Assembly (NCBI GenBank): GCA_030374765.1
Contig: JARGXX010000095.1
Location: forward strand, 868,001-932,000
From: Agarophyton chilense
Lineage: Eukaryota; Rhodophyta; Florideophyceae; Gracilariales; Gracilariaceae
Reading direction: 5' to 3'
DNA length: 64,000 bases
Part shown: positions 31,701 to 55,832 of the stretch, piece by piece
How positions within the stretch are numbered: the stretch's first letter is position 1
Layout: the number at the start of each line of letters is the position of its first letter
Program-made: the position numbers and the translations under genes
The notes under the pieces: generated by a model
What the model was told of the DNA's origin: nothing
The model's database searches: none
What the model saw: only the letters and a program-made list of their open reading frames with translations

Positions 31701-31812
31701 TCATAGTTGATAATCAGTAAATGTCCTTTGCTTGCGTGTCTTCACGTTTCCTCTTCATGATTTCTTGTTTTCTTCTCTCCTTTCGAGTTTTTACTACCTT
31801 TGTAGTCCATAC

Positions 31813-38653: not shown

Positions 38654-38975
38654 CGAGCGTGAGCGCGACGATACAGTCGTTCTCCGGCTTCAAAAGATGA
38701 GGCGAGCCTCGGTTTCGGGGGAGATCCCGCAGGACCGGGGCGACCAGTACTCGACTGGCTTCGGGTCTTCGGCATCCTAGACCAAACCTGAGTCCAAGTG
38801 CGAACCAAATGGTGTCTTCGACTTCTCGACCACGTGTTCAACCACGAAGAATTCCGCAGTTGCTGGAGGTGGTTCGATAAACAAACACTGTAGTGATTCC
38901 ACTTCTTCCAAGTATCGATATCGATTCCACGCTCCAGGAACGAATTGTTCAATGCATCTGACCACAGTAGTTTTA

Positions 38976-38990
38976 AGTCGGGACACCACT
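38976..38990 (-). other. Putative primer-binding site
   Basis: On the minus strand AGTGGTGTCCCGACTT follows the LTR end GCTACA, close to the strings at 1745 and 7795. Confidence 0.65.
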
Positions 38991-39327
38991 TGTAGCATCC
39001 GCTCTAACGGAGAGAGCAGACACCTGCGACAGCGTTCGGACTGCCAATGGGTCGCTTGCGGCGAAGGAAAAGGGGTGGTAGAGCTACAACACCAGCGAGC
39101 TGGAAGTGGGGTGTAAGGCCACTACTCGCCAGCGAGGGTGAACAGTGCAACTGTAAAACGTTGATGGGACGTAGGTACGAGACGGCTCGTGAAGTGGTTG
39201 GGGGCTGAATATCTATTATAGCTCGTCCGGATCTCCGGTTAAGGAATCCTAAGCGAGGAACAGAATAGTCATGATGCCCATGTTGTCTCCTTTACTTGGA
39301 GTCGGCGCTCACCTCTGGTACACTATA
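38991..39327 (-). repeat. 5' LTR, first piece (interrupted)
   Basis: Matches 30221-30557 with about 11 differences and stops at the transposon end. The sequence resumes at 55504. Confidence 0.92.
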
Positions 39328-39351
39328 TCGTCTGTGTTCTCGGAATGCTAG
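39328..39351 (+). repeat. Left terminal inverted repeat
   Basis: TCGTCT followed by the shared core GTGTTCTCGGAATGCTAG. It pairs with 55480-55503, with mismatches at positions 3 and 6. Confidence 0.9.
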
Positions 39352-39425
39352 ATAAGTGTGCTAGATAGCTAGTTTTGTAAATAACAAGCCTAAAAATCTA
39401 AGAATTTTTGCAGATTGCGCTAGTT
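39347..39425. repeat. Left subterminal GCTAG motifs
   Basis: GCTAG occurs at about 39347, 39360, 39368 (as GCTAGTTTT) and 39418. Similar motifs cluster at the right end. These are likely transposase-binding repeats as in CACTA elements; that role is inferred. Confidence 0.6.
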
Positions 39426-40007
39426 CGGCACCTGAAAAAAAATTTTTTTGGAAATAAGAACTCCATGCATCTTAGTGTTTTGACCATTTAATGCAGTTTA
39501 ATCTGCATTTGCAGTTTACTGGTCACTTTTGACCGCTCTAGGTGGAGATCCCTACCAACGCAGTCGTCAGTACCTTCTACCTCCTTACTGGCCCTTTTGC
39601 TTACTAGGCTCCAGCGTTCCACCGGGAGGGTATTTGATGTTGAAGAAGTCCACCACCGCATTCTCAACCTCGTCTACCTCCCCACTGCTCAAGTTCCTCA
39701 CACCCGGCTGCCCCACCACACACACATTCCCACCCTTCTTCTCCACATCCTTACCAACCCTCCTCTTCTTCAGCCGAATCTCTCCAACTCCTCCCCCTTT
39801 CCATTCCTCTCTCCCCTTCTTCATCCCAGCCGGCTCCCCGCGTCTCCCTGGCGTCACCGGCGACCCTTTCGCTCTCCCCCTCTCCTCTCCCACCTCCTTC
39901 AGATACTCTGAAACAACTGTTCAAAGAGCGGTATCATATCGTTACCTATGTGCAGCGTACAAGAAAGACTAGCAAACCGGAACGCCTTTACTAAGATGTT
40001 CAGTTAG
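39352..40007. other. Left flank of the giant transposon, pyrimidine-rich
   Basis: After the subterminal part, 39660-39910 is extremely pyrimidine-rich on the plus strand. ORFs exist on both strands (39529-39972 plus; 39585-39893 minus, basic and Gly/Glu-rich). I cannot tell whether either is real. The minus one has the purine-rich coding style of the large ORF at 49-51.6 kb. Confidence 0.35.
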
Positions 40008-40835
40008 CAAACACTCTTCACATCGACCTTATCGTTAACAATCACACTAACTACACTCTTCGGAGTTATAGACCCAGCTCTTCAATATACGCTTCCATTC
40101 AGATTCAACTCTCTCCTTCGGTTCATTCTCATAACGCTATTGAGGTGTCCTATCCAAAGCCTGCTGCACATTCTCATAATCGAAGGAGGCGTACAATGTA
40201 TAAACGCGTTATACGGGTCTCTACAAACTACGCCGTTCAATCCAAACCAGCGATATACCTGGAAGAAACGAGCCTTTCTGGAATTCGGGGCTCTTCTCCT
40301 TACTCTACTCATCCCCCTCAACGCCATACTTTTCCTCGTTCACCGCTTCATTCCAGTCAGCGGTACCCTTTCATCAGACGTAAAGACAAATTGTATCGCC
40401 TTCTCCACAGGAGGGGCTGCAGTTGGCGCTTTGGCATATCTTCTCCAGCTTGTTTCTATATCCTTCTTTCCAGAGTCCTATCTTAACACAAAGTTCACAA
40501 TGACCCCGGAACCACGGAGAACCTCTTTTATGAACCTCGTGCTTGGCGCCCTCTCCCACTCTTTTCAACAGGCTTTATTCATATCCAGTCCGGCTGTAAC
40601 CTTCCGACTACTCGGTATGAGGCTGTCGGCATGCACTTTCGCTGCACTCTCTTCAACCGCCTTTTCCACATCTCGCATTGAGGGCCCTGGTGTTCCTATA
40701 CTGCTTGGTAACACAGTGGATGTCGTAATCTTGATATCTTCGACAGTTGTCATTCACTATGAGAAAGTGAAAGCAAGTGCTGCTCTCACGCGTTTCAATC
40801 CAGTTGTTCAGGAGTTTCTACTGAAAGACGACTGA
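40008..40835 (+). CDS. Multi-pass membrane protein-like ORF, start unclear
   Basis: Open from a TAG at 40005 to a stop at 40833. It is hydrophobic in several stretches: about 40015-40170, FGALLLTLLIPLNAILFLVH (about 40290-40350), GAAVGALAYLLQLVSISF, and VPILLGNTVDVVILISSTVV near the end. No ATG lies near the 5' end, so the start may be upstream of a small intron or non-ATG, or the gene is truncated. No family is recognised. Its neighbour at 40917 is convergent. It might encode an integral membrane cargo protein; the alternative is a decayed ORF. Confidence 0.4.
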   Translation, partial: QTLFTSTLSLTITLTTLFGVIDPALQYTLPFRFNSLLRFILITLLRCPIQSLLHILIIEGGVQCINALYGSLQTTPFNPNQRYTWKKRAFLEFGALLLTLLIPLNAILFLVHRFIPVSGTLSSDVKTNCIAFSTGGAAVGALAYLLQLVSISFFPESYLNTKFTMTPEPRRTSFMNLVLGALSHSFQQALFISSPAVTFRLLGMRLSACTFAALSSTAFSTSRIEGPGVPILLGNTVDVVILISSTVVIHYEKVKASAALTRFNPVVQEFLLKDD

Positions 40836-40916
40836 TCACTATTACAAGAAAAGGGGACTACTCCACATATTACCTCAAATTGTACTCTTTATTGTTCAAT
40901 AGGTAACAGATACTAT

Positions 40917-43045
40917 CTAGTCGTCGTCTTCATCCATTATCATACCGCCGTCTTCATAGTCTCCATCTGTGTTAGCCGAGTTGAGACCCATCCCAGGTTC
41001 ATCATCCTCTTCTTCATACTCCTCTTCCCCACTTTCAACAACTTCCATTTTATAATCTTCATCCAATTCCTCATCCTCATCTACCTGGACGTCTTTATCA
41101 TGACCCTTGTTGGAATCATCCTCTTCGAACTTAGGCCGAAATGCTGGTTGCTTATGCACTGCGTCCGGTAGCTTGTACCCATCCGGTACCAAGTACATGT
41201 GATACCTCATGCAAACTTCCTTAACCAATGCATCCTCGTAACCAGCTCCAGCATGAAACACATCTCCTCTTCCAATAAAAAAGGAGTACGGCGGAATCCT
41301 GAACTTCCTCACTACCATCGTCCGAGACAGCCGCTTCAAGCTCCTGTCGTCGGGAACGTACATGTTATGTGACCTCTCACAAACCCAAAGCATAAACGAA
41401 CTCGCTCCCGACGCCATCATGAAGAACCCTGGAACCTCTCCGACGTTCTTCTCGGCATCGGTCAGTCCTCGAAAGTCCGTATGTAACACCTGCGTTGGAC
41501 AGCCCTCCGCCGTAAGCAGCACTCGCCCCCCTGTTTCAGGGGATACATCCTCTTCTTCCCCGACCGGTTGTTGCACAACCGAAGAGCGGCCGCAATCTGT
41601 CCAAACCTCGCATCCAACAATGCCCTTTTCCTCACCATTAAAACGTTGTTCTCGTCCCCCTCCACAGAATCCACAATCCCCACCTTCGTCGTAATGTACC
41701 GCCCAACTCCCTTCATTCTATCTCCAGCGTCTCTCTCCTCACCAGCGTTGATTATAGCGTCCCATTTCTTTCTATTTCCTTCAATCGTCAAGTCCGGCTG
41801 GTTAAAGAAATCCGTCTGGAAGAACTCTAGCAAAGTCCCAGTCACATACCCATCGAAGTTTACCCCCCTCTTCTTCGCCTCATCCGCCATCGCCTCGTCC
41901 GTGGCAAACTCTTCCAGCACACAAAATCCTTTCTCCATCAGCTCACTTCTCTTAGTCGCGAAGTACTCGCGGGCCAAGTCATCCCTCTCCATTGCTGCCA
42001 TCCATATCGCCTGCTCTTCATTCACAGGTTGGTCCTTCGTCGGTAGAATCACCCCAAGAACCGGTTCTTTCGTGGAACCCAGTTCCTTGTGCCTGTTATG
42101 AGCAGCACGCCAATAAACCGCATGGTGCACACTTTTCAAGTCTTCTACCCTCAAGCACTCCGCCCTGTGCTTGTTCCGTAGGTAAATCATCTGCATCCAG
42201 AGGTGCTGATGCTTCACTCCATTTTCACCCGACGGCCACTCGCTCGGAAGTGCATTCACCAAGTACACCCACGACATACCCGACCCCCCCGCATACGGTC
42301 CCGCCCTCTTCAGCCCCTTCGGAACACCCTCCAGATTATTGTCTTCGAAGCCACGCATTTGCACACCTTCCTCCTCTTCGTCCCCTACAAATGCACCCTG
42401 CCCCCCGTCATCATCCCGTTCATCCTCACTCGATGAGAAAACATTGAGTACATGTTCCTTCAAGAAGCGCTTCACCTCTTTCCTGCTCATCTTCTTGAAC
42501 ACATCCACCACGTCAGCCGGTATTTGAGCCGCAGATGTGCCCACCGTCTTTCTCCTCTTCCTATTCCGCTTTAAAGGCTGTTCATACTCGCGTTCATCAT
42601 CACTAATGACCACAGCCTTTCTCTTCCCCTTTCTCTGTCTAGGTTCCATCACCCTCTCACCCGCAGCATCCAGCCCGCGCTCAGTACCTTTTCTAGTTCG
42701 TGTGATGCGTCTGGGAACCACGGTTTCCTGGTGGGGTACAGACTCCCCAGCACTCGACGAAGGAACATTCACAGAAGGTGGCACCTCCACCACATCCTTC
42801 TCCGCACTTGGGGACGCCAGACTCACTTTCAGACCGCCTTCAATCCGCCTTTGTGCGATTTTCATCCTCTTCGACACCAACCCCGGCCACAACCGCTTCG
42901 GACCACTGAGCTCCATCTTCGCCGTTTGCATGCAAAGGTACTCCCTTAAAGACACCTCGGTGTATCCCATCACAATTGTGCTGTCTAGAACCTTCCCCGC
43001 CGTCAGACCCTTCTCCTTTCCCGCCCTTTCGCATAGTTGGAACAT
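40917..43045 (-). pseudogene. Putative Fe(II)/2-oxoglutarate dioxygenase, one frameshift
   Basis: A 527-codon block from ATG 43045 has a disordered basic/acidic N-terminal half (Lys/Arg nuclear-localisation-like clusters, SDDE, DEEEEG). The oxygenase-like start follows (MEKGFCVLEEFATDEAM). Near 41545-41580 the sense switches by one base to a second frame running to 40917. That frame has TQVLHTDFRGL (an HxD metal motif, His near 41483), GDVFHAGAGYED (possible distal His) and RYHMYLVPDG (possible 2-oxoglutarate Arg), then a long acidic tail. The phytanoyl-hydroxylase-like fold is inferred from this motif order. The frameshift is a mutation, sequencing error or programmed shift. Substrate unknown; DNA, RNA or chromatin is plausible from the neighbours. 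Confidence 0.5.
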
Positions 43046-43229
43046 TCCTATGGCGCATTGGAAGAACTGCTTTCGCGTCTCCTGGAAACGTCCCCATATT
43101 CCCCGTAGAACCCATCCTCACCCTCACATGTAGCTGCAAACAACGGATTGCGAAACGGAATATTTCGTCTTCGAGTCCTAACAACCAGTCACTCGACACA
43201 TGCGCAAGCGTTAGCACTGGACCCTCCTT

Positions 43230-44603
43230 TCATACGTTCTCAAAGAACTCCAGGAGACCTTCGCTCCTGACGAATTTCAACCAAAGAGTCGCATAGCGAT
43301 TCAAATGGCGCAAGCTGTAGATTCCTATAGCTTCGCTCGTCTTCAGCGCCCCAGCTATCCGTGTAGGAGTAAGGTCAGCCAACTTGGTTCTCTTATCGTC
43401 AATCAAGTTGCAAATGAAGGACACTGTCGAATGAACCTTGTCGGCGAAACTCATCTTCAACACATTTGAACTCATTTCATTGAGTACATTACCAAGATCG
43501 GGCACTTCGTTCAGCGATAAAGGCTTCCGGTCCTTGCGTCTCCAAAGAACGACATCAAGAGACCGCACAATTTCCAACCACTTTCTCCCTTCAGAGGGAT
43601 CATTCTTCAGATCTCGCAGAACCAAGACGCGGTGATGACCGTCAATGAGTATGACAGGCACCACTACCCTCCCATTGTGAACAATTTCACTGAAATCTAA
43701 TTCCATTCCCCCGACGATGGCAACAGCAATCGACCCTGCCGACGCAAGCCAGCCAAACGTTTTGCACTTTGCCATCGTCGCCGCCTTGTGTTCCGCATTC
43801 ACACTTCTGACAGTCTTCTCGGGGATTTGTATGTCATCTATGTCCACAATCAAGCGGCACTGGTCATAGTCTGAAACAGAGATCTTCTTTTCCACGAGAG
43901 TTCTATCCACTTCCTGCGAAGGAACGGCATCGCCGTCATCGAACAACTCCAACTCGGGACCGGTGTCCGAATCCCCGCGTACATTCACTGCTGACCCCAC
44001 CTCCACAACATCTTCATCAGAATCATCCACTATCGTCACCCTCTTTTTCGGCTTGACGGGTTGCTTCATGGCCGGCGGCACTGTTGGTGGCTGTGCCCTC
44101 TTCCCCCTCAAAGGCATAGCAGACTCCTTCGAGGGGGTCACGCTTTTGGGAGTCTCCGGCCGAAGAGGCCCTGGAGTCAGCACAGAGGAGACGCGTGTCA
44201 TCATCGAGGTATCCCATGCGTATATACCTGCCAACACCATATCCTTCAGCAACTCCGGCGGCTCCTCTGCTCCCTTGAAGGAGTACGGATACTTGGAGTT
44301 GATCCCCTCCTTAATTTCAGTTCTCCAGATGGCCACCAAGTCCTCTCCCGGCTTCGCAGACTCGCGCAACGAATGGCCATGCATCGCTCTGCAAAGCGCC
44401 TTCCCGGCCGCTCCACTGCCCCCAACACCTCTCAACTCCGCAGTGCCAACCATAGTACCCTTCTGCTTTCCTGTCCCATCCGCCAGGAACAACGCCAATC
44501 TATCCCCACCAGCCAGATTGTTTCCCGATGTAGCTTTTCGCAGAGTGGCGCGTGGAGTACCCCGCGGAGTACCCCTCGCTTTCGCTTCGCCTCGAGTCAT
44601 CAT
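43230..44603 (-). CDS. ParB/Srx-fold protein
   Basis: An uninterrupted 457-codon ORF. Residues 1-230 are mostly basic or disordered (MMTRGEAKARGTPRGTPRAT, a Pro/Lys stretch, then SDEDVVEVGS). From about residue 250 comes a ParB/sulfiredoxin-like domain: CRLIVDIDDIQIPEKTVR (the typical entry strand and motif) and, after about 65 residues, VVVPVILIDGHHRVLVLRDL, whose DGHHR matches the GxHR-type box of the fold. A helical C-terminus follows (LADLTPTRIAGALKTSEAIG). Family members bind DNA and hydrolyse CTP, or act as nucleases or kinases. Eukaryotic cases are rare outside mobile DNA. It is divergent from the methyltransferase gene across a palindrome array. The dioxygenase-like gene follows 185 bases downstream. 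Confidence 0.65.
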   Translation of the reverse strand: MMTRGEAKARGTPRGTPRATLRKATSGNNLAGGDRLALFLADGTGKQKGTMVGTAELRGVGGSGAAGKALCRAMHGHSLRESAKPGEDLVAIWRTEIKEGINSKYPYSFKGAEEPPELLKDMVLAGIYAWDTSMMTRVSSVLTPGPLRPETPKSVTPSKESAMPLRGKRAQPPTVPPAMKQPVKPKKRVTIVDDSDEDVVEVGSAVNVRGDSDTGPELELFDDGDAVPSQEVDRTLVEKKISVSDYDQCRLIVDIDDIQIPEKTVRSVNAEHKAATMAKCKTFGWLASAGSIAVAIVGGMELDFSEIVHNGRVVVPVILIDGHHRVLVLRDLKNDPSEGRKWLEIVRSLDVVLWRRKDRKPLSLNEVPDLGNVLNEMSSNVLKMSFADKVHSTVSFICNLIDDKRTKLADLTPTRIAGALKTSEAIGIYSLRHLNRYATLWLKFVRSEGLLEFFENV

Positions 44604-45574
44604 TTGAATCGGATCGTAGTCGGTCGAGGTTTCAAATGGTCGCAGAGCGCTTTGAGCCTTTTATGGTATACAGACTAAGACGTATTGGATCGAGCTCCTT
44701 TGGTGGCGACTATCCGGAACACTCCCTGGAGCAGTTCGTTGCAATCAGCCCGAACTTCGTCCGCTTAGTTTCAACATGAGCTACGTCCGCTTAGTTTCAA
44801 ACTCAAGAAACTCCTTGTCTCTTTCCATCGCAAACACGCATATTGGCTTGGTAGGCGATACAAAAAAATAAAATTAAAAAATTAAAAATATACCGACGGC
44901 CGACAGAGGTGCACTCCGACTTCATCGGGGGTCCCGATGAAGTCCCCGCGCACCTCTGTCGGCCGACATAATACATATAATTTTGTAATTTTTGGAACGC
45001 TCAGGTGTACACGGTGCACTCTGTCGGCCGACAGTCGACCAACATCTCAGAAACGCATCATGCGTGATGTTATGGCGTATTTGTCGACCGACAGGGGTGC
45101 CCTGCGACTTCATCGGTCCACCGATGAAGTCGCAGCACACCCCTGTCGGTCGACATAATACATATAATTTTGGAACGCCCAGGTGTACACGGTGCACTCT
45201 GTCGGCCGACAGAGGTGCGCTCCGACTTCATCGGGGGTCCTGATGAAGTCCCCGCGCACCTCTGTCGGCCGACATAATACATATAATTTGTAATTTTTAG
45301 GAGGCCCAGGTGTACACGATGCATTCTGTCGGCCGACAGAGGTGCGCGGGGACTTCATCGGGACCCCCGATGAAGTCGAAGCGCTCCTCTCACGGCCGAC
45401 AGAATGCAACCAGGATAGCTGCGAAGTCGTTCCGCAACAACCGTTCTTCCGTGCGCGCTCCTCAACCGTACTCACAATATTTCCGTACCCACCCGCACCC
45501 ACCCGCACCCGCTGCTCTCTTTCACTCAGGCTCTCGTGACGACCGCCCGTGAGGTTGTTTGAACACGTACATAA
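44604..45574. promoter_or_regulatory. Divergent promoter region with palindrome array
   Basis: 971 bases separate the ParB-like (-) and methyltransferase (+) start codons. It holds four palindromic units (see next), AT-rich spacers with ATACATATAATTTTG that resemble TATA elements, and a direct repeat CGTCCGCTTAGTTTCAA at about 44757 and 44785. Both promoters probably lie here. Confidence 0.55.
44896..45405. repeat. Four large palindromes in tandem
   Basis: Units centre near 44931, 45118, 45239 and 45364. Each arm is about 32 nt, beginning GGCCGACAGAGGTGC (unit 2: GTCGACCGACAGGGGTGC) and ending GACTTCATCGGG at a 3-5 nt loop. Within each arm a short block differs between the two sides, giving the palindromes an orientation; unit 4 has the arms swapped relative to unit 1. 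Spacers repeat TAATACATATAATTT and CAGGTGTACACGGTGCACTC, the latter containing the palindrome GTGTACAC. This looks like iterons or operators bound by a dimeric protein; the adjacent ParB-like protein is the obvious candidate. Confidence 0.85.
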
Positions 45575-47941
45575 ATGGCTCCAGAACCCACGAGAACTTC
45601 TTCATCGCCTGCGGCAGACACCTTCGAAATGGGTAAACTGTTTGGTACGGCGGATGAAGTTATCAGGGCGTGTCTGGATTAGCGTGATCGTTACGCATCA
45701 ACGAGGCGGGAGGAAGATGAGCCGCGAAAAGTGGGGCACACTGCATTCATCGATTTCGCAATTGCCAATCGCCACATCCTACCGGAGACTGCGAAGTTTT
45801 TTTATACTCTCTTAGGTCCCGACCACACCAATTACACAGAAGATGAGCTCCGAGTTGTAGGAATGAGGGGCTCGAACTGTCAGAATTATTTCTCGGCGAG
45901 GTTGCTGGATATAAGGGATGGGGATCCAGATAGGCGCGTGAGGGACTTTTGGAACGCGTACGAGGCTGTGGAGTTCAAGGACATCCCGAAGAATGTCACT
46001 TTGACAGAGTTCTTCAAAGGTCTGGATACAACCCGAAAGAAGGCGAGCAAAAGCCGGGCTCCATTCGCGACCGACTTCCCGACAATGTTCCAGAGGTTGC
46101 TGTTCCTCATTTGTATTCAGTCGGTCTCTATGGAGAAGAGAAGAGTCTCCCGTAAGCGAAGAAAGCGGGACAGAACCTAAGATACGCCATTTTCGAAGGT
46201 GGCGATTTATGACAAACCAGTAGCTCAGCGTGTGGGCTTTGGTGTGCAGCTCGTCAATAACGCGTGGGACAGCTTCGCCCAGTATTTGGGATTCCCTGGC
46301 GTGGAATTCATGGTTTTGCCCTTTATCCATCTACGATATTCTGATATGCAGTTTCAGGCAATCGGAAACAGAAGGGATGGGTTCTCTCACAAGGACATGG
46401 CCCAACGACTCCTTCCTGGTAGAAACCGTACTTTATTGGAGGAGGATGTCGTCCCATGGGCGTGGAACCTGCCGGAGTACGTTGACACTCCACTTCGTAT
46501 GTTGGCCAGAGAGTTTCTCGCTGACCTGCACAAAGTGGTGGAGAATGAGCAGCTTTACTCTATATCAGCTCCGGAAAGATGGGACGTTCTAAAACCGTTT
46601 ACATACACTTTGCCTACAGTGTTTGCGGAGAGATTCGACTGCTTCTCGAACTCTCTTATCTCTACCATCTCGGAATACATATCGCCACTAAAGCTGCGAG
46701 GGAGTGTGGAGGTGTAAGTGGTGGCTGCGACAAAGGCGGAACCTACTATGGTTATGGAAGAAGACGAGATAGAAGTTGTACCCCCTGAGAAAGATTTGGA
46801 GGCTCCGGCGGTGGAGGGTGGAGAGGGAGTGGAGGGTGGGACCGGGAATGAGGAAGAGAACATGGGTGTTGGTCAGCATTCTTCCACAGCTGGACCAAGG
46901 TCGGTCGAATCTGAGTCGGTGGATATTCTGCCGCCTCACGATCTTACCTCTCTGGATGATATAATGTCTCTCCAAAAGTGCGAGTCGGAGATGGATAAAC
47001 ACTGTCGAATGTACAATTGTACTTTCGAGAACCTGGTGGAGATTGACGAGACATTGCGCAGCAATGGGGTCTCTCCGATAGGGAAAGTGCAGTTGGTTCT
47101 CATGGACCCGCCGTATAATATACGTGCGAAGAAGAACAGGAAAAACAGCTGGTACGACGTTCTTAACCGGCAAGACATGGTGAAGACGGCGAAGCTCATC
47201 TCTAAACTTCTGCGTCCGGGAGGGCATTTCGTTATATTCTGCGCGATTGAGCAGGTGAACGAATGGAAAGAAGTGTTGGGTCGAATTGGTGCAAAGGATG
47301 AGAATGGACAGAAGAGCAGGTCGTTTGTCGTGGACAAGGTCCAGCTGTACTTCATTCGCTCTCAAGGCAATCCGATGCGTAATCCCGGACGTAGTTCGTG
47401 CTCCCTGTTTCCCGGAACAGAGTACGCCATTTATGGAGTTCGCAGCAGGTTGTCCTACGCCAAACAACATGGCATGGTGAACTATGAGAACTTCAGCTAT
47501 GTACCATCGCGATATCCGGGTTACCATAGCGTTATTGACCAAGTGCCTCCCATGTCGAATGGTGAAACACTTCTATGGAGAAGAAAGAATGCCAAAGGAG
47601 CAGTTACGTATCAGAAAGTGCGGGCGGAACATAAGTCACGCGCTTTGCTGAAGGAGCTCATCAGCAGGTTTTCTCAGCCGGGAGACATAGTGGTGGACCT
47701 CTTCGCCGGAACATTTTCAACGGCCATGGCATGCATGGAACTGGAAAAGCACCGTCAATTTCTAGGGTGTGAGCCAGATTTGCCGTGCTTTGCTCATGCG
47801 AAGCACGCCGCTACAGTGAAATTTGCGTCATGCATGCGGAACAACGAGACGGACATTCATATATCGCAAGATGTTCGGAACGCTGTGACTCGAGTGACAT
47901 GCTTGTTTCCGGAAGTCGTCATAAAGCGTTCGAAGTCCTGA
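45575..47941 (+). pseudogene. Beta-class DNA amino-methyltransferase, three in-frame TAG/TAA
   Basis: From ATG 45575 one frame of 789 codons runs to TGA 47939, interrupted only by TAG (45680), TAA (46178) and TAA (46715), without any frameshift. The first 380 codons are an unrecognised region (FIDFAIANRHILPETAKFF; VEFMVLPFIHLRYSDMQFQA). An acidic linker follows. The catalytic domain has LVLMDPPYNIR (motif IV, residue about 511), LLRPGGHFVIF, and SQPGDIVVDLFAGTFSTAMA (motifs X and I, residue about 700-720). The order IV before I marks beta-class N6-adenine/N4-cytosine enzymes. The last 407 codons alone form a complete catalytic unit starting after the third stop. Each stop is one transition from CAG or CAA. 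It is divergent from the ParB-like gene and followed by SET 30 bases on. Confidence 0.8.
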
Positions 47942-47971
47942 AAAACACCTACCGGATTTCCCGAGCATCAG

Positions 47972-48661
47972 ATGTTTCCACCTCATATCGTGGATTTTCT
48001 CTCCTCCATGTGGCAAGATAAGAATATATCGGAGATTGTGCGACGGCAGGCGCTGTATGAGTGGCCAAGAAGTTTTCAAGGAAAGATGTCACTGTTGGAT
48101 TGGAATGCTATTCTGGCAGTGGAGGGGACAGTATGTGGTTGTCGGATTGCAAATGCTGGAGTTGGTGTGTATACAACACGCCGGGTGATACAAGGTGAGA
48201 CTGTTTGTTACTTTTACGGGACTTTGGTGTACCATGATCTTTCAAAGCGGAAGGAAGTTCATAAGGCATACGGAGGGGGGCAATTGAAAGCGACTGCTGA
48301 TCGTTTTCGGCAGTACGCGATGGAGATAAGCGTCCGAGGGGAAGTGTTTCACAAGCTACCAGGAAGAATTAGTGGGGTGTCTCTTATTCCGGTGTGGATT
48401 GTCCCTGCTCCATTTTGCTTGCGGGGAACAATTAACGACCCCAAGTATTTGGAAGGGGATAGGGACAGGGATGCGGTTGAAGACGGGTTAATGAGACGCC
48501 GAACTGCAAATGTTCGGGTCATCAGAACTCCGGGGACGGGGCGGACCCCATTTCAGTTGAGAGACTATAGATTGCTTTCTGTGCAAGCAATTCGAGATAT
48601 AGAAATAGGAGAGGAGCTGTTCACCAGATATTGGAAAAGTATTCTCCTTCGGTGTACATGA
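47972..48661 (+). CDS. SET-domain protein
   Basis: A 229-codon intact ORF starting 30 bases after the methyltransferase and in the same frame. SET features: CRIANAGVGVYTTRRVIQGE (the GxGV/F entry and strand), VCYFYGTLVY (YxG-like), TINDPKY in the place of the catalytic INHSCxPN knot, and VQAIRDIEIGEELFTRYW (GEELxxxY). Family members methylate lysines on histones or other proteins, in nucleus or cytoplasm. NH is ND here, so activity is uncertain. It is small, like single-domain viral and bacterial SET proteins, without pre-SET or post-SET cysteines that I can see. Probably nuclear, from the company it keeps. Confidence 0.7.
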   Translation: MFPPHIVDFLSSMWQDKNISEIVRRQALYEWPRSFQGKMSLLDWNAILAVEGTVCGCRIANAGVGVYTTRRVIQGETVCYFYGTLVYHDLSKRKEVHKAYGGGQLKATADRFRQYAMEISVRGEVFHKLPGRISGVSLIPVWIVPAPFCLRGTINDPKYLEGDRDRDAVEDGLMRRRTANVRVIRTPGTGRTPFQLRDYRLLSVQAIRDIEIGEELFTRYWKSILLRCT

Positions 48662-48982
48662 CATTCCTTTAGCATATGTACTACATCACGCTTTGACGTT
48701 ATATGTAGCGACAAACATAGTAAAAGCCCACAATATCTGGTACACTACAATGAAGTAAAGTAACAAAAGCGATGCACTTTTAATCGATTACTATGACTGG
48801 CGTGTTATTCATACTCCGTTCGAGCGCATATTTAAAATATCTGAAAAGTTTGGGGGTTTTCTAAGAACACGAAAAGGGTGGAGGTATATTTTTGGAAGCA
48901 GAATGTTTCGAAGCTTCTCTCCCATCCATCGCATTGCAACGCGTGGAAGACCATAACACGATCGCTCTCTCTCTCTTCAACC

Positions 48983-51637
48983 ATGGCTCCGAAGCGCAAA
49001 TCGAGAAGCGAGAACACTAGCGGGCGCGGTACAAAATCACGGCGGCATGGAGGGGATGCGGAGGGCGGAAGGAACAAGGGGCGTAGGCTCCAGGGCGCCA
49101 GTGGAGAGAAAGGAGGCGTGCGCCTGAGAGGTAGATTAAGGCAAGATGGTGGGGAAGGAGAGGCGAGTGGGGGCAAAGGAAAGGCTGTTCGCGCAAAGGA
49201 GACGGTGACGGAGGAGAGTGCGGAGCAAATCACGTCGCCTATGGAGCAAATCACGTCGCCTACGGGAGAGATGGTGCGGAGCGGCGATGGAAAACGGGAT
49301 GGCGTGCGAAGCAACCGCACGCGTGTACCTAGAAGTGGATTGCGGGGGAGGGCGAGCAGAGCTCCAGGGAGGACAAGGAGAGGGGATGCATTCGAGCGGA
49401 CTCTAAGTGCTGTACTCACGTCTTCAGCTGATGTGGAGCCGGTAAATCCATGCTCTGCACCTGAAGGAGGTGAAGAGATTCCGAATGAGAGGACGAAGGG
49501 GCGTAAGGAGGGAGAGAGAATGATCGGAGAACGTGGATCCCGCCTCAGAGGCGTTGAAGAAGCAGGGGCATCGTTTACGGGTATGAGGGAAGAGGACGGT
49601 GATGATGAGATACAGAAAGGGAGAATAGAGAGTAGCCGTGGTGGGAAGGGTAGAATAGGTGGACCCAGTAGTGGTCTAATCGCGGGCGCAAGAGTAGTTC
49701 GAGAGAGAACAGAAGGAGAGAGTGTTGGAGTTACCGCGGGGGAACAGGCGGAAAGATGGGAGGGGGCGAACTTGGATTACGTGGAAGAAAGGAGAGAGCG
49801 TGCAAGGGAAAGAATGGGGAGTGTTCGAGTTACAGGAAGAAGAGCGATAGACGAAAGGGAAAGCAGAGAAGTGCATGTGAGTGAGGGGGGGAGAAGGGGG
49901 TTTGCTGGAGGGAGAACACGTGGTTCAGGGGAGGAAGGCGATGGAAGAGCAGCAGTTCTTTCTCATGAGGGAGAAGATGTCGAGCGTTTGCCACCGAGGA
50001 GAGGGGTGGGTTTGGGAGTTGAACGGTTTGAGGTGAACGCAAGGCGAAGGACGCCGGAAGGTATGCGAGTAAGGAGAAACATTGAATTCACAAGGAATAA
50101 TGATAACGGGGAGAATGTGAATTTAAATGTCGTGGAGAACGCCGTTCGTATAGTGGAAGATGAAGCAAATGATGATGACATAGGTTTGTTGCCGCGGTCG
50201 ATGCTAATTGAGAAGATGAATGTGTTGAAGGGACCAATGGGACGTATGAAGGAAGACAGCTACAGTGTGATGGTGAGTTTGAAAATGACCCAAACGGAGC
50301 TGGATCGGGCGAGGGAGGAAATGAAGCAGCAGAATGTGCTGATTGAGAGTTTCAGGGAGGCGTCGAAAGGTAGAATCGCTGGGGAAGGGAGGGGGGAGGG
50401 AGGCGTGACGCGGCGACGAAAGTATGACATTGGAGTGCAGGAATGCTTTTATGGATTTGCACGTCGTGTGTATGATAGGATTCTTCATTATGAAAAACTG
50501 GAGGCATCGGAACTTTGCTTCGACACCGAGAATGTGGGTCGAAGCTGGAAGAATAGAAGTGAGGCGGTTGGGGAGAGTAGGGAGGAAAGTATGTTTGTGG
50601 TGGGAGGGAAGGAAATGGTTCCGAGATGTCCAATTGAGGTTGCATATGTGATAAGACCGTATACGCAGTCGACAGAGGGCGGGAACCATTTGTTGTTGAA
50701 GCACGTGGTAGAGACTGAGTTAATGGGAGAGAAATGGGAGTCGATAAGGGAAGCGGGGAGGAGAGAGGAATGCGTGGAAAATGTAAGTGCGGATAGGTGC
50801 TTGAGACAGAGGATGAAGCAGACATTGAGCGATGTGGTTGGGGTGCATAAGCGAGCAGCGCGTGATAAGCTGTTTTCCTTGCTTGGATATGATTTGATCG
50901 CGAAACGAGCTAAGGTGACTGAAGGGACAGATCTTTGGGCGGAGTTGAAGAAGCAGATTGAGGAGGCGCAGGAGAAGTTGATGGGGTCGGGGGAGGATGG
51001 GAGAGGTAAGCTGTGTGCGTGGAGAACGAGTGCGATTGAAGATAATACTTATTCTGGATCGAAGGTGTCTGAGAACTTGGAGGACTTTGGTGAGGCAGAT
51101 ATGTATTTTCGAAATCAGGTGTCGTTGAAAGTGTTGGAGGAGTTTATGGGCTACGCGGTAGAGAGTCATAGAAATGGAGAAAGGCAGTATGTGGATGGGA
51201 CGGTGATGCATCTTGCGCGACTTGATGCATGGATTGGATGTGTGGTGACCACGATGGATAGAGACGTTGGGCGGGGAGGCCAAAGGCAACTTTTGTTCTC
51301 GACGCTGTTTGGGAGGTTTCTGCCACTGGCTGTTGAGGACATATTGAGGGTTGCCTGGAACATGGTGAAGGATGAGTATGCTGAGGTGTTTGAGAATGAT
51401 GGATTCTGTGGAGGGAATCGTAGAGATGTGAGTGGGAATAAGGAGAGAATCGCGACGGTTGGGCTATGGATACCGTCGAGAGAAAAAACCTATCTGGCGA
51501 TAAGGGAGGAGTTTTTCATGGAGAATCTCACGAGAAGACTTGGAGCGGTGTTAGATTGCTATATAGCGTCATGTGGACCAGAAAAACCACGGTTCAAGCG
51601 CTTAGCATTGGGGAGTAGGCAAGGAGTGGGAGAGTGA
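48983..51637 (+). CDS. Large basic protein of unknown function
   Basis: An uninterrupted ORF of 885 codons from MAPKRKSRSENTSG; the frame is open from 48878, but this ATG has a good context and a nuclear-localisation-like start. Residues 1 to about 430 are low-complexity Arg/Gly/Glu-rich. A coiled-coil-like stretch follows (VMVSLKMTQTELDRAREEMK). From about residue 475 there is a globular C-terminal region with GVQECFYGFARRVYDRILHY, TLSDVVGVHKRAARDKLFSL and AVLDCYIASCGPEKPRF. I recognise no domain. It is convergent with the transposase 397 bases away. It could be a DNA-binding accessory factor of transposition, like TnpA of CACTA elements; that is inference from position and charge. Confidence 0.65.
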   Translation: MAPKRKSRSENTSGRGTKSRRHGGDAEGGRNKGRRLQGASGEKGGVRLRGRLRQDGGEGEASGGKGKAVRAKETVTEESAEQITSPMEQITSPTGEMVRSGDGKRDGVRSNRTRVPRSGLRGRASRAPGRTRRGDAFERTLSAVLTSSADVEPVNPCSAPEGGEEIPNERTKGRKEGERMIGERGSRLRGVEEAGASFTGMREEDGDDEIQKGRIESSRGGKGRIGGPSSGLIAGARVVRERTEGESVGVTAGEQAERWEGANLDYVEERRERARERMGSVRVTGRRAIDERESREVHVSEGGRRGFAGGRTRGSGEEGDGRAAVLSHEGEDVERLPPRRGVGLGVERFEVNARRRTPEGMRVRRNIEFTRNNDNGENVNLNVVENAVRIVEDEANDDDIGLLPRSMLIEKMNVLKGPMGRMKEDSYSVMVSLKMTQTELDRAREEMKQQNVLIESFREASKGRIAGEGRGEGGVTRRRKYDIGVQECFYGFARRVYDRILHYEKLEASELCFDTENVGRSWKNRSEAVGESREESMFVVGGKEMVPRCPIEVAYVIRPYTQSTEGGNHLLLKHVVETELMGEKWESIREAGRREECVENVSADRCLRQRMKQTLSDVVGVHKRAARDKLFSLLGYDLIAKRAKVTEGTDLWAELKKQIEEAQEKLMGSGEDGRGKLCAWRTSAIEDNTYSGSKVSENLEDFGEADMYFRNQVSLKVLEEFMGYAVESHRNGERQYVDGTVMHLARLDAWIGCVVTTMDRDVGRGGQRQLLFSTLFGRFLPLAVEDILRVAWNMVKDEYAEVFENDGFCGGNRRDVSGNKERIATVGLWIPSREKTYLAIREEFFMENLTRRLGAVLDCYIASCGPEKPRFKRLALGSRQGVGE

Positions 51638-52033
51638 TAAGGTACGGGGGGATAAGGGGGTAAGGAGGTGGAGCAAGATGGGGGTCGGCTATGGAAGAAA
51701 AGCAGCGGTGACTATTTTATTGGATCATGTGCCTTAGGAGGTATTATTATGGGTGCCACCCAGTGGTGGTGTTGTGCCACCAGTGGTGGTGTTGGAGAAG
51801 TAGGGCTTGGCAGTTGGGTCTCGGTAGAATCTGTTGAGGTAAAATCGATGGAAGCGCCAGTGCAATCGAGGGGTGAAGGGGGGTGCGGGGTAGTTTTGGC
51901 GGAGTACATGAAAGGGGCCGAGACTGGAAGAGGATGGTACGAGGCCGAACCAGGGGGAGACGTTGTCGGAGTTGGAAGTGTTTGAGATAGTAAGGGGGTG
52001 GGCGGTGTGGTTTTGTTCGTCGTCTGTTGCCCA
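51638..52033. other. Convergent gap between large ORF and transposase
   Basis: No gene. It contains a tandem of GTGCCACCAGTGGTGGTGTTG-like repeats at 51755-51800 with local inverted symmetry (CACCA/TGGTG). It may hold 3' ends and termination signals for both genes. Confidence 0.4.
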
Positions 52034-54988
52034 TCAGAGGCAGATGCAATTGAGAGAGACATCGACTTGATCCTGGGGTGGAACGAGTTCGAGGAACTGA
52101 ACGAAGGCGAACTCGTTATGAGTGGAAGGGGAAGAAGGGGTGGTGAAGCGAAGAAGAGAGTTGAGCTTGCAGACCCAGGCGGTGGGAGTGGGGTTGGAGA
52201 AGCTGGAACCGGCAACGAGGATGTGGGAGAACTTTGGGGTTTTAGAGGGACCGAAGGAGGGAGCAGCGAAGATACGTTGAATGAGTGGGAGAGGGGGATC
52301 TTTGACGGCGAGCTCGTTTCGATCGGCGATGTAGTCGTCTAGGGTTGGGGTGAAGCCGCCGACGACGTATGCGGAATTGACGAATGTGAGACGGGTTTGG
52401 CAGAGAGTGGGGGAGTCCTGGTTGAGAGCTATTGTTTCGAGTGTGAGTGTGACGAAGGAGGGGAGTGCGAGGGTTCCAATCTGTGAGATGATGGCGATAG
52501 TGTCTGCGGAGAAGAGGTCCTGAAGGGAAGAGATTGTTGAGTGGGGGTTTGCTCGAAGGAATTTGTGAGCGGTGATGAGATCGGAAAAGGAGGTGTGCTT
52601 GCCATCACGGACGAAACCTGGTTTGCGGGCTTGGAAGGGAGGAGGAAGGGCATGGGAGGATGAGGTGACGGAAGGATCAGCGGAGAGAGAAATCCAATTG
52701 TTGACGGCATCGGAGCGTTCGATGGCACGGATGGTTTCGTTGTGCGCGGTGGGTCTGCGCTTGGAGGTTCGGGAGTAATGTGCTTTGAAGAGGGTATGGG
52801 CTTGTTCGAAGATGCCTGCATCGTTGAAGTGGAGACCCCCAAAGCGTCGAATGTCGTCTACGATGTGATCGAGGAGGTGGAATTTGAGGGTGCCAAGGTT
52901 GGAGGTATGGTATGGACCGAGAACATCGACAGCTCTGTGATCGAAGGAATGGATTTGGGAGGCGAGTTTGGCAAGACGAGAAGTGGTCCATTCGGGGACG
53001 GAGTTGTAGCACATGGGGGTGAGGAGGAGGTCTGCGTACTTGGAGAAGACGGTTGTGATGGGAGCGGAATTGGCTTCGTCACAGCAGCGGTCGAAGAAGG
53101 CGCCGATGAAGGGGAAGACCATGTCGAGGGCGCGGTAGTCTTTTGCTTCTAGCATGCCGCGGACGCCGTCAGTTGTGAAGAAGCCGTTGAGGGACTGCCC
53201 GCTTTCGGAAGTAGAGAAGTCGATGTGGAGGCCGGTAGCTGGGGAATGATTTTCGATGGCGGTGAGGATGAAGTTGGAGTGCTTGAGGATGGAGGTGCGA
53301 ACGGAGTGGAAGGAACGGCGAGAGTTTGTGGAGCTGATGGTGGTGAAGAGGTGTTCTGATCTGAGACGTTCGATGGCGGCGAGCTTGATGAGTTTGGAAA
53401 CGCCGAGGTGGAAGTTGTGGAGGGGTTCGAAGGGGAAGATGTTGTATGGGGTGAGGAGGGGGGTGATGTTGAAAAGGGGGTAAGACTCGAAGAGGGAGGG
53501 GTATTTTGCGAGGGAAAGGGAGTGGAGTGCTTGGAGAGCTTGTTCCTTGAAGTTGCGCGAGACTCTTGGCTTGCGGGCGAGGAGAGCTGCTTCGGAGTCC
53601 TTGAGGATAGAGAAGTGTTTGTTGCGGGCTGCAAGGGTGGGGGGAAGAGATCGAGGGGGATGGGCGTGAGAGTGTTGGTGGAGTTGTGAGCGAGGGACAG
53701 AGCATCTGTGGCAGGGGTGCTGGGGGCGGGTGCCGTGGGAGAGGGCGAGAATACCCTTTGCCTCGGGAATGTCTGCGCAGTAGCTGGCGATGATGGGGTG
53801 GCATTGACGAAGAACGCCGTCTGCGTCGCGGAAGGGGAAACCGGGGAGGGCGGAAGAGAAGAGAGGTTGAAGGAGGGAGGAGATGATCTGCTGTATGAGT
53901 TCCATTTTTGTTTGGCGGGGGATGGAGGAGGAATGAGTGATGATATCTGCATCTGGAGAAGGAGTGATTGGGGTGAAGGAGGTGGGAAGATAGCCGAGGA
54001 GTGTGAGATTGTCGGAGATGCATTTGCGGCGAAAGGAGTCGGAGAAGTTGAGAAGGGTGATGTGGAGGGGGTAGGAGGTTATGGAAGAAGATTTGAGAGA
54101 GGTAGGGGACTTGTCGTAGTAGATTTGGACGAGGCCGATGAAGGAGTCGATACTGGTGGAGTGGGGGAGATGCCAGACGATGTTATCTTTTGTGGACTGC
54201 ATGATGGCGGTCTTGAGTGCGGGGACGACTTTTGAGCCGAGGGTGGCTGCCATGGGGTGTGCAAAGGCGGGGGAGCCGGAGGCGGATGTTTGGGAGATGG
54301 GGTGGAAAAAGGTGTTCTTGAAGTGTGCGAGGGCGAGCTGTTGTTTGAGGACATGGATTGCGTCTTTCTGGAAGAGGGTTGCGGAGAAGCGTTTGTGGGG
54401 ATCGAAGATGGTGGAGGGGGCGAAACCAATAGACCTGATTCTCTGGTGGAAGAGGTCTGCCTGGAGCTCGAGGCATTGCTTTGCGGAGGAGACTGAGTTC
54501 TGGAATGTTGATTCGGAGAAGTGGGGATCATTAAGGAGAGTGATGAGTTCGTCAGCCTTTCGTTGTCCAAGCTTGGAGGCGATGGAGGAGATGTAGAGGA
54601 CCATTTTCTCCAGGTGGGGGCTGTCGACGGGGGGAGTAGAAGGAGGGAGGGGGGAGAGAGCGAGAGAGGAGGGGGAACCGAGAGGGGCAGTGGCGACGTG
54701 GATGGCGTCCTGGGTGTGGAGGGAGAGAGAGAGCTGGTCTTGGAGGTAGGAGTCATGGTGTGCGAGAGGGACGTTGTCGGAAGGGCGACGTGAGGGAGGA
54801 GGATGAGGGGGGAGTTGTGAGGTGGACTTGTGGCGTTTTGTGCGGGGGGGGAAGTTGGGTTCATTTCTGCCAGGGGAGAGGAAGCGCTTGTTGGCGGAGA
54901 GGCGATGAGGGCACCTTCTCTGGTGCCGCTGGAGGGCGGGGATTTCTCGGGCGAAGAAGGAGCAACCGTTGAAGCAGCAGGAAGGCAT
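52034..54988 (-). CDS. Plavaka/CACTA-like transposase
   Basis: 984 codons from MPSCCFNGCSF; the frame is open 39 codons further upstream but without ATG. An N-terminal C2H2-like zinc finger (CFNGCSFFAREIPALQRHQR, then RCPH) and a Ser/Pro-rich linker come first. The catalytic region has YPLHITLLNFSDSFRRKC then LLGYLPTSF, and CHPIIASYCADIPEAKGILA then CHRCSVPRSQL (Asp and a CxxC insert). It continues with PYNIFPFEPLHNFHLGVSK and LKFHLLDHIVDDIRRFGGLH then IFEQAHTLFKAHY. This order matches Plavaka-type RNase H-fold transposases, relatives of CACTA and KDZ, as I remember them. They bind the terminal repeats and cut and paste the element in the nucleus. Length is typical. It is free of stops, so it could be active. 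Confidence 0.82.
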   Translation of the reverse strand: MPSCCFNGCSFFAREIPALQRHQRRCPHRLSANKRFLSPGRNEPNFPPRTKRHKSTSQLPPHPPPSRRPSDNVPLAHHDSYLQDQLSLSLHTQDAIHVATAPLGSPSSLALSPLPPSTPPVDSPHLEKMVLYISSIASKLGQRKADELITLLNDPHFSESTFQNSVSSAKQCLELQADLFHQRIRSIGFAPSTIFDPHKRFSATLFQKDAIHVLKQQLALAHFKNTFFHPISQTSASGSPAFAHPMAATLGSKVVPALKTAIMQSTKDNIVWHLPHSTSIDSFIGLVQIYYDKSPTSLKSSSITSYPLHITLLNFSDSFRRKCISDNLTLLGYLPTSFTPITPSPDADIITHSSSIPRQTKMELIQQIISSLLQPLFSSALPGFPFRDADGVLRQCHPIIASYCADIPEAKGILALSHGTRPQHPCHRCSVPRSQLHQHSHAHPPRSLPPTLAARNKHFSILKDSEAALLARKPRVSRNFKEQALQALHSLSLAKYPSLFESYPLFNITPLLTPYNIFPFEPLHNFHLGVSKLIKLAAIERLRSEHLFTTISSTNSRRSFHSVRTSILKHSNFILTAIENHSPATGLHIDFSTSESGQSLNGFFTTDGVRGMLEAKDYRALDMVFPFIGAFFDRCCDEANSAPITTVFSKYADLLLTPMCYNSVPEWTTSRLAKLASQIHSFDHRAVDVLGPYHTSNLGTLKFHLLDHIVDDIRRFGGLHFNDAGIFEQAHTLFKAHYSRTSKRRPTAHNETIRAIERSDAVNNWISLSADPSVTSSSHALPPPFQARKPGFVRDGKHTSFSDLITAHKFLRANPHSTISSLQDLFSADTIAIISQIGTLALPSFVTLTLETIALNQDSPTLCQTRLTFVNSAYVVGGFTPTLDDYIADRNELAVKDPPLPLIQRIFAAPSFGPSKTPKFSHILVAGSSFSNPTPTAWVCKLNSLLRFTTPSSPSTHNEFAFVQFLELVPPQDQVDVSLNCICL

Positions 54989-55479
54989 GGTGGGTGGAGG
55001 AGAGGTGGTGGGAAAGAAGTTGGTAGGGGGCGTAGACGGAGAGAGAGTATGGCGCACACAGGGCACGTGACAGGGGAAGGCGGTGGAGAATAATATAGAA
55101 TGCAAGGCACGCGAGGTCTGCCAGGTCGGGCTGCGATTCTATTGCGACTGATATGGATGGTACTAAATGTTCAATTTCTATTTTGAGGTCCATTTTGGGA
55201 CCGGTTGTTTGTACTAATCTGTCAATCTAGAGCGCACAAAGATTGAATCTGCTCCTGCACCACTTCTCTACTTTTACCTTTAAACTGCGGCGACAGAAAG
55301 ATTCACGCTAGTTTTACCTCCATCAAAACTAGAAAAACTGCAGATATGTGCTAGTTTTCCTTCCCGTACAAACTAGCACTAATGAACGAATGAAAATATT
55401 TTCGGAAATGAACACCTCCAAATTTGGATAAATTCACAGGTTTTTCGTTCATTTCAATTCGTCCTTTTTGACCACTGAA
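54989..55479. other. Transposase leader and right subterminal repeats
   Basis: No other gene. CTAG motifs in both orientations cluster at 55305-55490 (ACGCTAGTTTTACC, AAAACTAGAAAAA, GTGCTAGTTTTCC, AAACTAGCAC), mirroring the left end. Likely the promoter of the transposase and its binding sites. Confidence 0.55.
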
Positions 55480-55503
55480 CTAGCATTCCGAGAACACTGA
55501 TGA
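55480..55503 (-). repeat. Right terminal inverted repeat
   Basis: Reverse complement is TCATCA plus GTGTTCTCGGAATGCTAG; it pairs with 39328-39351. Confidence 0.9.
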
Positions 55504-55832
55504 TACTGTGTGCCAGGGTGAGTGCCCAAATAATACGTAAATAATACCCAGTGGTCAGCCACTTAGCCAAACCACTGTATGGGTATGGTCCCTAATGGAC
55601 GTCTAGCTACAAAGGGTAGTAAAACCAGCCACGTGGATCGCCACTACACGCGCCGTTGCAAGCCAGTCCACTCGTGATATCACGTGTTCCAACAACGTAC
55701 GCTGCCTCCTGGCATCCTTCGCGGTGTGCCGTTTCATATCACAAGTTTGATGACATCACTCACTTATGAGTTCCAACCGCGACTTCGCGAAAAACCAACA
55801 TATCGGATTCCCCGACATAATAGAACACTACA
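55504..55832 (-). repeat. 5' LTR, second piece
   Basis: Matches 30558-30886 with about 19 differences and ends CTACA. On its own it looks like a truncated solo LTR; with 38991-39327 it completes the LTR. Confidence 0.92.

Follow-up and report, generated by a model that had tools for sequence, protein, structure and literature searches.

The 64,000-nucleotide stretch of Agarophyton chilense DNA analysed here (the window) harbours a genuine Plavaka-type DNA transposon of 16 kb, and we consider it somewhat probable that this element, present here in decayed form, belongs to a giant red-algal family with its own DNA- and chromatin-marking system. The element spans positions 39329-55502, as determined by comparing its ends with an intact partner of the LTR that it interrupts. 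Its left terminal inverted repeat (39329-39351, plus strand, CGTCTGTGTTCTCGGAATGCTAG, with a CGTC... terminus) and right terminal inverted repeat (55480-55502, minus strand, reverse complement CATCAGTGTTCTCGGAATGCTAG), read from the end sequences, the partner LTR and other copies, are identical at 21 of 23 bp. An initial annotation had reported inverted repeats of 24 bp with 22 matches; the inverted ends are present, but one target base was probably included in that count. The dinucleotide AT is duplicated at the target site (39327..39328 and 55503..55504). An uninterrupted partner LTR lies in the same window at 30221-30886; the left part of the interrupted LTR (38991..39326) matches partner positions 30221-30556 at 96.7%, the right part runs from about 55505 to 55832, and partner positions 30550-30886 are 93.8% identical to 55494-55832. 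The partner segments align up to both element ends with AT left on each side, bearing out the exact interruption of an LTR proposed earlier. Of ten other copies whose two ends were both read, seven are flanked, like the window element, by an exact 2-bp duplication, a length within the 2-3 bp range of Plavaka elements, and three have none. All ten of these copies begin with CGTCTG and nine end with CTGACG, the window's own right end being TGATG. The subterminal motif GCTAGTTTT does occur at both ends, as the initial annotation stated (39368, 55307 and 55350, in identical orientation), and a fourth copy lies beyond the element at 14545. A left-end block of 573 bp (39329..39901, plus strand) is common to all seven other left-end loci read (L002-L008), six of which diverge from the window beyond it through deletions or an extra ORF. 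An extended inverted repeat of 44 bp was rejected because the uninterrupted LTR partner carries it too; it reflects palindromy of the LTR target.

The cargo is a constant part of this transposon. Near-full-length copies of the methylase/SET block occur in at least 37 places, the window included, at 97-100% identity (37 of 40 scored places, from 131 candidates); the corresponding figures are at least 38 places for the ParB/oxygenase block (38 of 40 scored; 68 candidates) and at least 37 for the 930-codon block (37 of 40 scored; 158 candidates). Each of the cargo blocks recurs near full length, with identities of 96-99%, in 36 or more places besides the window, so other copies do not share just the transposase and ends. 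When chains of five markers were built from the best 40 matches per marker, at least 17 of 92 held four or more markers with the cargo co-linear with the ends, and at least two, the window and one other, held all five. Hence, the proposal that the cargo travels with the transposon is upheld, and dozens of near-full copies per block indicate that it is no artefact. An assembly artefact or a chance inverted repeat, in favour of which nothing was found, has a negligible probability given at least 40 left ends, at least 40 right ends and the near-full methylase blocks in separate places of the genome, together with the precise, uninterrupted LTR partner. The family is high-copy, recently active and roughly 16 kb long, and its best copies contain four large intronless genes. 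The window copy is decayed: it had been taken for intact, but breaks or truncations affect all but one of its four large genes.

Assignment to Plavaka rests on the transposase ORF (52034..55138, minus strand), which matches PF18759 (2.2e-21; 76.9 bits, cut-off 26.3) and in which CHRC and HLLDH are visible by eye. Described as uninterrupted, this ORF in fact lacks the last 103 C-terminal residues found in two other copies (L093 and L094). The genome contains 123 Plavaka matches out of 235 candidates. Plavaka was the sole Pfam model matched by the transposase, with no match to a Kyakuja/Dileera/Zisupton (KDZ) transposase, and the host is a red alga; the fungal, KDZ setting of the initial annotation is therefore not supported. 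Light-harvesting and phycobilisome-linker genes in the host genome rule out a fungal host. We do not claim membership of lineage B because the ends of the other copies (CGTCTG on the left, CTGACG on the right) differ from the PlavakaB termini, 5'-CATCA..TGATG-3'. Starship giant elements carry a tyrosine-recombinase captain; no tyrosine-recombinase Pfam domain was found in the large ORFs.

One cargo gene (45575..48661, plus strand) encodes, according to ORFs, Pfam matches and a 30-locus alignment, an N-terminal domain fused to a DPPY DNA methylase (46718..47941, plus strand; PF01555, 4.2e-17) and a SET domain (47942..48661, plus strand; PF00856, 1.3e-4). The initial annotation had listed separate methylase and SET genes, and the window's gene does contain in-frame stops and an altered C-terminus. 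Among the 30 aligned loci, which are the best-scoring matches with the window included and not a random sample, the stop at 46178 is missing in 29, that at 46715 in 28 and that at 47939 in 27, while the full frame of 1036-1043 codons is open in 10 and broken in 20; methylase and SET are thus one gene. In beta-class amino DNA methylases the DPPY motif precedes the SAM-binding motif, and this order is present in the copy at L010 (DPPY at residue 511, DLFAGT at 708), with PF01555 recovered at 3.3e-18 in a further Pfam scan. The closest PDB matches of the methylase are adenine methylases. The SET domain exceeds its threshold (PF00856, 23.4 bits against a cut-off of 22.4; 8.3e-5) but has ND in place of the NH typical of such domains, which leaves its activity in question. 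The methylase-SET architecture recurs in environmental proteins from unassigned hosts (P0001, P0002, P0005, P0007 and P0012), in a search that under-samples the distribution outside this genome (407-aa query; proteins of about 224-712 aa admitted). One scan of prokaryotic genomes with one short peptide pattern confirmed no relatives.

A second fusion gene (40917..44603, minus strand) has a ParB-like and an oxygenase-like part, named by motif. It is one ORF in three of five other copies (L047-L049), with 1247 codons between stops and a product of about 1,228 aa if translation begins at the first ATG, the five being best-scoring matches and not a random sample; the ParB-like, middle and dioxygenase-like pieces once annotated separately are fragments of this gene, which is split in the window into ORFs 43230-44660, 41462-43117 and 40917-41717. 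By eye, the ParB-like part contains the motif VPVILIDGHHRVLVLRDL and the oxygenase-like part an HTD..H pattern. The ParB-like part has no match in Pfam, NCBIfam, PHROG or PDB, the oxygenase-like part matches no TET/JBP or other 2OG oxygenase in Pfam, NCBIfam or PDB, and a search for homologues of the protein found none; the names given earlier thus gained no statistical support. Modelling the structure of the ParB-like part from its single sequence gave no usable result (pLDDT 35). A 930-codon frame (48845..51637, plus strand, stop to stop), taken from the ORF list and other copies, has a basic N-terminal half and stays open over 930 codons in L095 and over 915 in L096; its protein has no Pfam match, and structure prediction of the C-terminal part was uninformative. 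A putative ORF of 275 codons (40008..40835, plus strand) is also open in L003 (271 codons) and in a copy on C79 (275) and has no Pfam match above cut-off.

Between the two divergent fusion genes, and absent from the initial annotation, lies an array (44893..45402) of nine palindromes, CTGTCGGCCGACAG, with 0-2 mismatches and a spacing of 56-65 bp; 0.18 palindromes at this stringency were expected. Exact sites number 207 genome-wide against none for a reversed control, and each of the 50 that were listed has an element marker no more than 8 kb away. The array is present in all 12 other copies read. It is also kept beside the left end in three deletion derivatives (L002, L007 and C3:97010) that lack the ParB-oxygenase gene which normally separates the two. 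Judged from their sequence, the palindromes look like binding sites.

We infer that the cargo may mark, protect or maintain element DNA, a role to which the palindrome array and the once-open fusion genes lend some weight. Because it carries methylase-SET and ParB-oxygenase-like genes together with the palindromes, the element may control the marks on its own DNA and chromatin. The transposase would move any DNA bearing these ends, and management of element chromatin would fall to the other three proteins. Of these, the ParB-oxygenase protein would bind the palindrome array through its ParB-like half, the methylase-SET protein would write a DNA mark and a histone mark on element chromatin, and the oxygenase-like half would remove or oxidise a mark. 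Adenine methylation is the likeliest DNA mark given the DPPY motif. The joint effect of the three proteins might be an element that stays readable and mobile, or one that curbs its own activity, independently of host silencing. A complete, self-addressed epigenetic circuit, in which the array is the address, the ParB-like protein with its eraser domain loads onto it, one enzyme writes DNA (probably 6mA) and histone marks and a paralogue writes at the subtelomeres of this genome, in which no C5-cytosine methylase was detected, is a tentative extension that we regard as rather unlikely. Should the fusion have the activities that its domains imply, a single enzyme carried by a transposon would couple DNA and histone methylation, a coupling that to our knowledge is achieved by separate proteins in other known cases. 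Such an enzyme would give direct access to two questions: whether adenine methylation of the bacterial type truly serves as a eukaryotic chromatin mark, and how DNA transposons deal with their own silencing in a setting that may lack 5mC.

Several known systems share features with this element, as far as the available portions of the cited reports describe them. Kojima (2025; PMC12730594) described TET/JBP-bearing PlavakaB transposons in mushrooms and proposed a counter-silencing role. Both have a Plavaka transposase, a 2-bp target duplication and an additional gene resembling a DNA-modifying 2OG oxygenase, but the host here is a red alga, the ends are CGTC..GACG rather than CATCA..TGATG, and the oxygenase-like part, for which no TET model gave a match, shares one protein with a ParB-like part. 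Relative to PlavakaB as described in that portion, the methylase-SET fusion, the 930-codon protein and the palindrome array are additions. Plavaka-associated giant repeats of Amoebidium (PMC11244446) are likewise very large units of intron-poor genes, some with red-algal database matches; unlike our element, they are tandem gene clusters with many tyrosine recombinases, and the available description gives no ends, ParB, methylase-SET or array. Phytophthora HarbingerS and MuDR elements carry SET genes and plant Vandal elements carry anti-silencing proteins (cited in PMC12730594); these too are DNA transposons with a chromatin-acting protein, but they belong to different transposase superfamilies and a DNA methylase fusion goes unmentioned in the part of that report available. 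Bdelloid rotifers captured a bacterial N4CMT methylase (PMC8885841), another bacterial-type amino-methylase in a eukaryote. The methylase described here is transposon-borne, SET-fused and of the DPPY type. The rotifer enzyme, in contrast, is reportedly a host gene with an SPPY motif.

The copies also record how the cargo has fared. The majority letters of the 30-locus methylase-SET alignment give 1043 codons without a stop, private changes are neutral (ratio of non-synonymous plus stop to synonymous changes of 2.79, with 2.82 expected) and five loci (L010-L014) have no private changes at all, indicating an active ancestor and later decay. As private substitutions are neutral, no selection on the cargo is visible after insertion. 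The 61 changes common to two copies are skewed towards synonymous ones (ratio 1.65, expectation 2.27) while the 15 common to three or more show the opposite skew (6.50, expectation 2.42), such that this alignment gives no clear sign of selection. These observations bear on the possibility that the modifying genes are passengers caught by chance, with the ends and transposase alone mattering and the array being a promoter minisatellite. Neutral private substitutions within the family, the 20 broken frames among 30, derivatives without cargo and one subfamily with an additional ORF at the left are what passengers would produce. We nevertheless find this explanation doubtful, as the ancestor that amplified had an open methylase-SET frame, all four genes have open frames in near-identical copies, and the methylase-SET fusion is conserved in the environmental proteins and in a subtelomeric paralogue.

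A plasmid- or virus-like origin, in which the ParB-like protein and array would represent a parS-like partition system of a former episome that gained Plavaka ends and whose methylase-SET and oxygenase shielded or hid its DNA, appears improbable. Tandem palindromes between divergent genes beside a ParB-like motif would fit such an origin, as would the intronless large genes, a match of the methylase to phage methylases (PHROG 67, 2.3e-26) and the intron-poor, Plavaka-flanked giant repeats of Amoebidium, as described in the available part of PMC11244446. Set against these are the motif basis of the ParB identity, the absence of any viral or plasmid hallmark gene from Pfam scans of the large ORFs and a PHROG scan of three, and viral contigs in which four pattern-based scans, reaching mostly close relatives, confirmed no relatives.

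Our preferred reading, an element with its own marking system, must also accommodate a full-length methylase-SET paralogue in the same genome (L097), which is subtelomeric and 34% identical overall (methylase 53%, SET 43%, N-terminal part 27%, linker 27%; SET domain 25.9 bits against PF00856). The protein is therefore not bound to this transposon. It could chiefly serve a subtelomeric system, the transposon having borrowed it or the reverse, with a secondary role in the element; we rate this as low in probability as an episomal origin. An identity of 34% means an old split and hence no recent borrowing, the stretch C95:9100-19200 is free of Plavaka ends, transposase and exact palindromes, and members of the element family show no clustering near contig ends (at least 8 of 46 loci within 20 kb). 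The second family itself favours a subtelomeric role: among 30 hand-picked loci, a frame of 1130 codons or more is open in 21, the nearest contig end is no more than 20 kb away in 26 (expectation at most 6.8%) and an OrsD-domain gene adjoins 29 on the same strand.

The giant transposon occupies 39329-55502 of the window and, as the initial annotation had held, interrupts an LTR whose intact partner lies in the same stretch: the part to its left (38991-39326) matches 30221-30556 of that partner at 96.7% and the part to its right (55494-55832) matches 30550-30886 at 93.8%, with AT remaining at each junction. Inverted repeats are present, but rather than the 24 bp with 22 matches first proposed we read 23 bp, of which 21 are identical between the left end, CGTCTGTGTTCTCGGAATGCTAG, and the right end read inward, CATCAGTGTTCTCGGAATGCTAG. 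Among ten other copies with both ends read, seven have an exact 2-bp duplication and three have none. The LTR retrotransposon that received the insertion lies at 30221-39326 and 55505-55832; ORFs between its LTRs look polymerase- and integrase-like, by eye only. An automatically called 44-bp inverted repeat was rejected, as it reflects palindromy of the LTR target and falls outside the element.

A search of the genome (79.8 Mb in 135 contigs) gave no fewer than 40 left and 40 right ends (40 scored of 126 and 133 candidates, respectively), together with 123 Plavaka transposase matches from 235 candidates. For the methylase/SET block, 37 of the 40 places scored from 131 candidates, counting the window, preserve almost its full length (at least 1905 of 1944 bases), with identities of 97-100%. 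Nearly complete copies make up 38 of the 40 places scored for the ParB/oxygenase block (68 candidates) and 37 of the 40 for the 930-codon block (158 candidates; 96-100% identity). With 40 scored places per marker, five element blocks searched as markers form 92 chains, of which 54 join two or more markers and 17 four or more; all five occur together in 2, one being the window. Gaps in chains are expected because each marker list comprises 40 scored places only. The test set in the initial annotation, whether other copies have nothing but transposase and ends in common, therefore leaves the element standing. This is a mobile element with constant cargo, fusion genes and a palindrome array, and a genuine Plavaka-type giant transposon. 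We did not find an earlier description of its host, gene set or architecture in the open-licence literature, where no title or abstract found describes this gene set, in agreement with the first impression that no such element had been described.

The copy in the window has decayed and gives a false picture of the gene structure. Its methylase was aligned with the 29 next best-scoring loci, a set of 30 that is not random. The window stop at 46178 is absent from 29 of the 30 loci, that at 46715 from 28 and that at 47939 from 27, and ten loci hold a single open frame of 1036-1043 codons, which encodes an N-terminal domain that belongs to no known family, followed by a DNA methylase of the DPPY type and by SET. 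Pfam matches on this frame are PF01555 (methylase, 3.3e-18) and PF00856 (SET, 8.3e-5), and its top PDB matches are the bacterial adenine methylases DpnA (8.9e-10) and CcrM (1.8e-5). The methylase and SET proteins suggested as cargo are thus borne out as domains, but not as two separate genes. The pieces at 40917-44660 also belong to a single gene, whose frame runs uninterrupted through 1247 codons in three of the five other copies read (the best-scoring ones). Inspected by eye, this gene shows a ParB-like motif, VPVILIDGHHRVLVLRDL, and, close to the C-terminus, HTD .. H, a pattern resembling that of iron oxygenases; searches of Pfam, NCBIfam, PHROGs, PDB and homologues gave no match for either label, and the structure model of the ParB-like part reached a pLDDT of only 35, leaving the earlier ParB-like and dioxygenase labels as by-eye motifs. 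The 930-codon ORF is open in the window copy and in copy L095, with 915 open codons in copy L096. The transposase, previously taken to be uninterrupted, does match Plavaka but is incomplete, its C-terminus falling 103 residues short of those of copies L093 and L094.

For 629 private changes in the methylase-SET frame, the ratio of non-synonymous plus stop to synonymous changes is 2.79, against 2.82 expected under the same mutation spectrum; majority letters of the 30-locus alignment give no stops over 1043 codons, and five loci (L010-L014) have no private changes. Hence an open ancestor was amplified, partly recently, and its copies decayed neutrally thereafter. Changes in exactly two copies (61; ratio 1.65 versus 2.27 expected) and in three or more (15; 6.50 versus 2.42) form small classes with opposite directions, and we therefore draw no inference from either. 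Within the family, this comparison of the methylase-SET frame thus gives no clear indication that the cargo is under selection. C-to-T changes show a modest excess at CpG (73 of 384 sites versus 159 of 1203 elsewhere, p 0.006). One element subfamily (L004, L005, L008 and C79:1140137-1144100) is longer by about 2 kb at its left, where an ORF reaches up to 300 codons; the N-terminus of this ORF resembles a nucleotide-binding (Rossmann) motif by eye, and its only Pfam match, to a ketopantoate-reductase C-terminal domain (0.25), is weak and below cut-off.

The methylase piece as query returned 13 homologous proteins; P0008 is from the red alga Pyropia, and the others used are environmental sequences. 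Alignments span at least part of the methylase and SET in P0001, P0002, P0005, P0007 and P0012, end early in SET in P0004, and in P0008 cover the methylase and a conserved WPR of the linker, not SET; both domains are found by Pfam in P0001 and P0002 and among precomputed domains in P0002, P0007 and P0012. The genome holds 116 PF01555 matches. Manual assignment placed 76 of these, 46 with the element family and 30 in a second family; the other 40, mostly partial or weak, stayed unassigned. Of the 30 second-family loci, 26 are no more than 20 kb from a contig end (at most 6.8% expected), 21 have an open frame of 1130 codons or more, and 27 point away from the nearest contig end, the three exceptions being on contigs under 60 kb. 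An OrsD-domain gene (PF12013, 1.4e-6) adjoins the methylase-SET gene on the same strand at 29 of the 30 loci, and OrsD copies are mutually 96-100% identical (40 scored of 91 candidates). Contig C95, which opens with telomere-like CCCCTAAA repeats, carries such a subtelomeric unit, made up of L097 (C95:11632-15057) and L121 (C95:15928-19200). The L097 gene, the single one of its family read completely, is a full-length homologue of the element gene, with 34% identity over 1072 aligned positions; the methylase is the most conserved part (53%), followed by SET (43%), with 27% in both the N-terminal part and the linker. Of all the evidence, this pattern of conservation speaks most strongly for a functional fusion. 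In a small tree, element and subtelomeric genes group together (support 0.93), with Pyropia next on a long branch (0.93).

The stretch separating the divergent fusion genes contains nine copies of the palindrome CTGTCGGCCGACAG, each with 0-2 mismatches and at a spacing of 56-65 bp, against 0.18 expected by chance. Allowing up to three mismatches, all 12 other copies examined contain them, 2 to 18 each within the stretches examined; exact sites number 207 genome-wide (reversed control, 0), and all 50 sites listed of these 207 have an element marker within 8 kb. The array adjoins the left end in three copies without the ParB-oxygenase gene (L002, L007 and C3:97010, the last also retaining parts of the transposase and right-end region), and its retention there therefore suggests, without proving, a cis function. 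The ParB-like protein would bind this array, the methylase-SET protein would write a coupled mark and the oxygenase-like part may edit a mark; the likeliest benefit to the element would be an anti-silencing or self-limiting role. The TET-bearing Plavaka elements of mushrooms (PMC12730594) offer a precedent for anti-silencing; the red-algal element differs in also carrying a writer, and 5mC may not be its target. A six-frame genome search for C5-cytosine methylase (PF00145), run without a eukaryotic positive control, gave no candidate, and PMC9861306 reports 5mC changes and a DNMT3-like gene in other red algae; absence of 5mC is therefore not established.

Light-harvesting genes occur at eight places in the genome, and seven of 13 phycobilisome-linker matches are on contig C39. 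The top PDB match of one light-harvesting protein is chain 7y5e_72, from Porphyridium, and that of an ApcE-like gene is 5y6p, from Griffithsia; jointly, these findings mark the host as most likely a red alga. On C39, three linker matches fall in one 892-codon ApcE-like frame, at about 39 kb and again at about 225 kb, as if plastid sequence had been assembled twice in one contig. Elsewhere in the window, 7345-7790 recurs in direct orientation at 17423-17868 (446 bp, 96.9% identity), and the two copies may be the LTRs of a further element; ORFs at 56887-57957 resemble a PIF/Harbinger-type transposase by eye.
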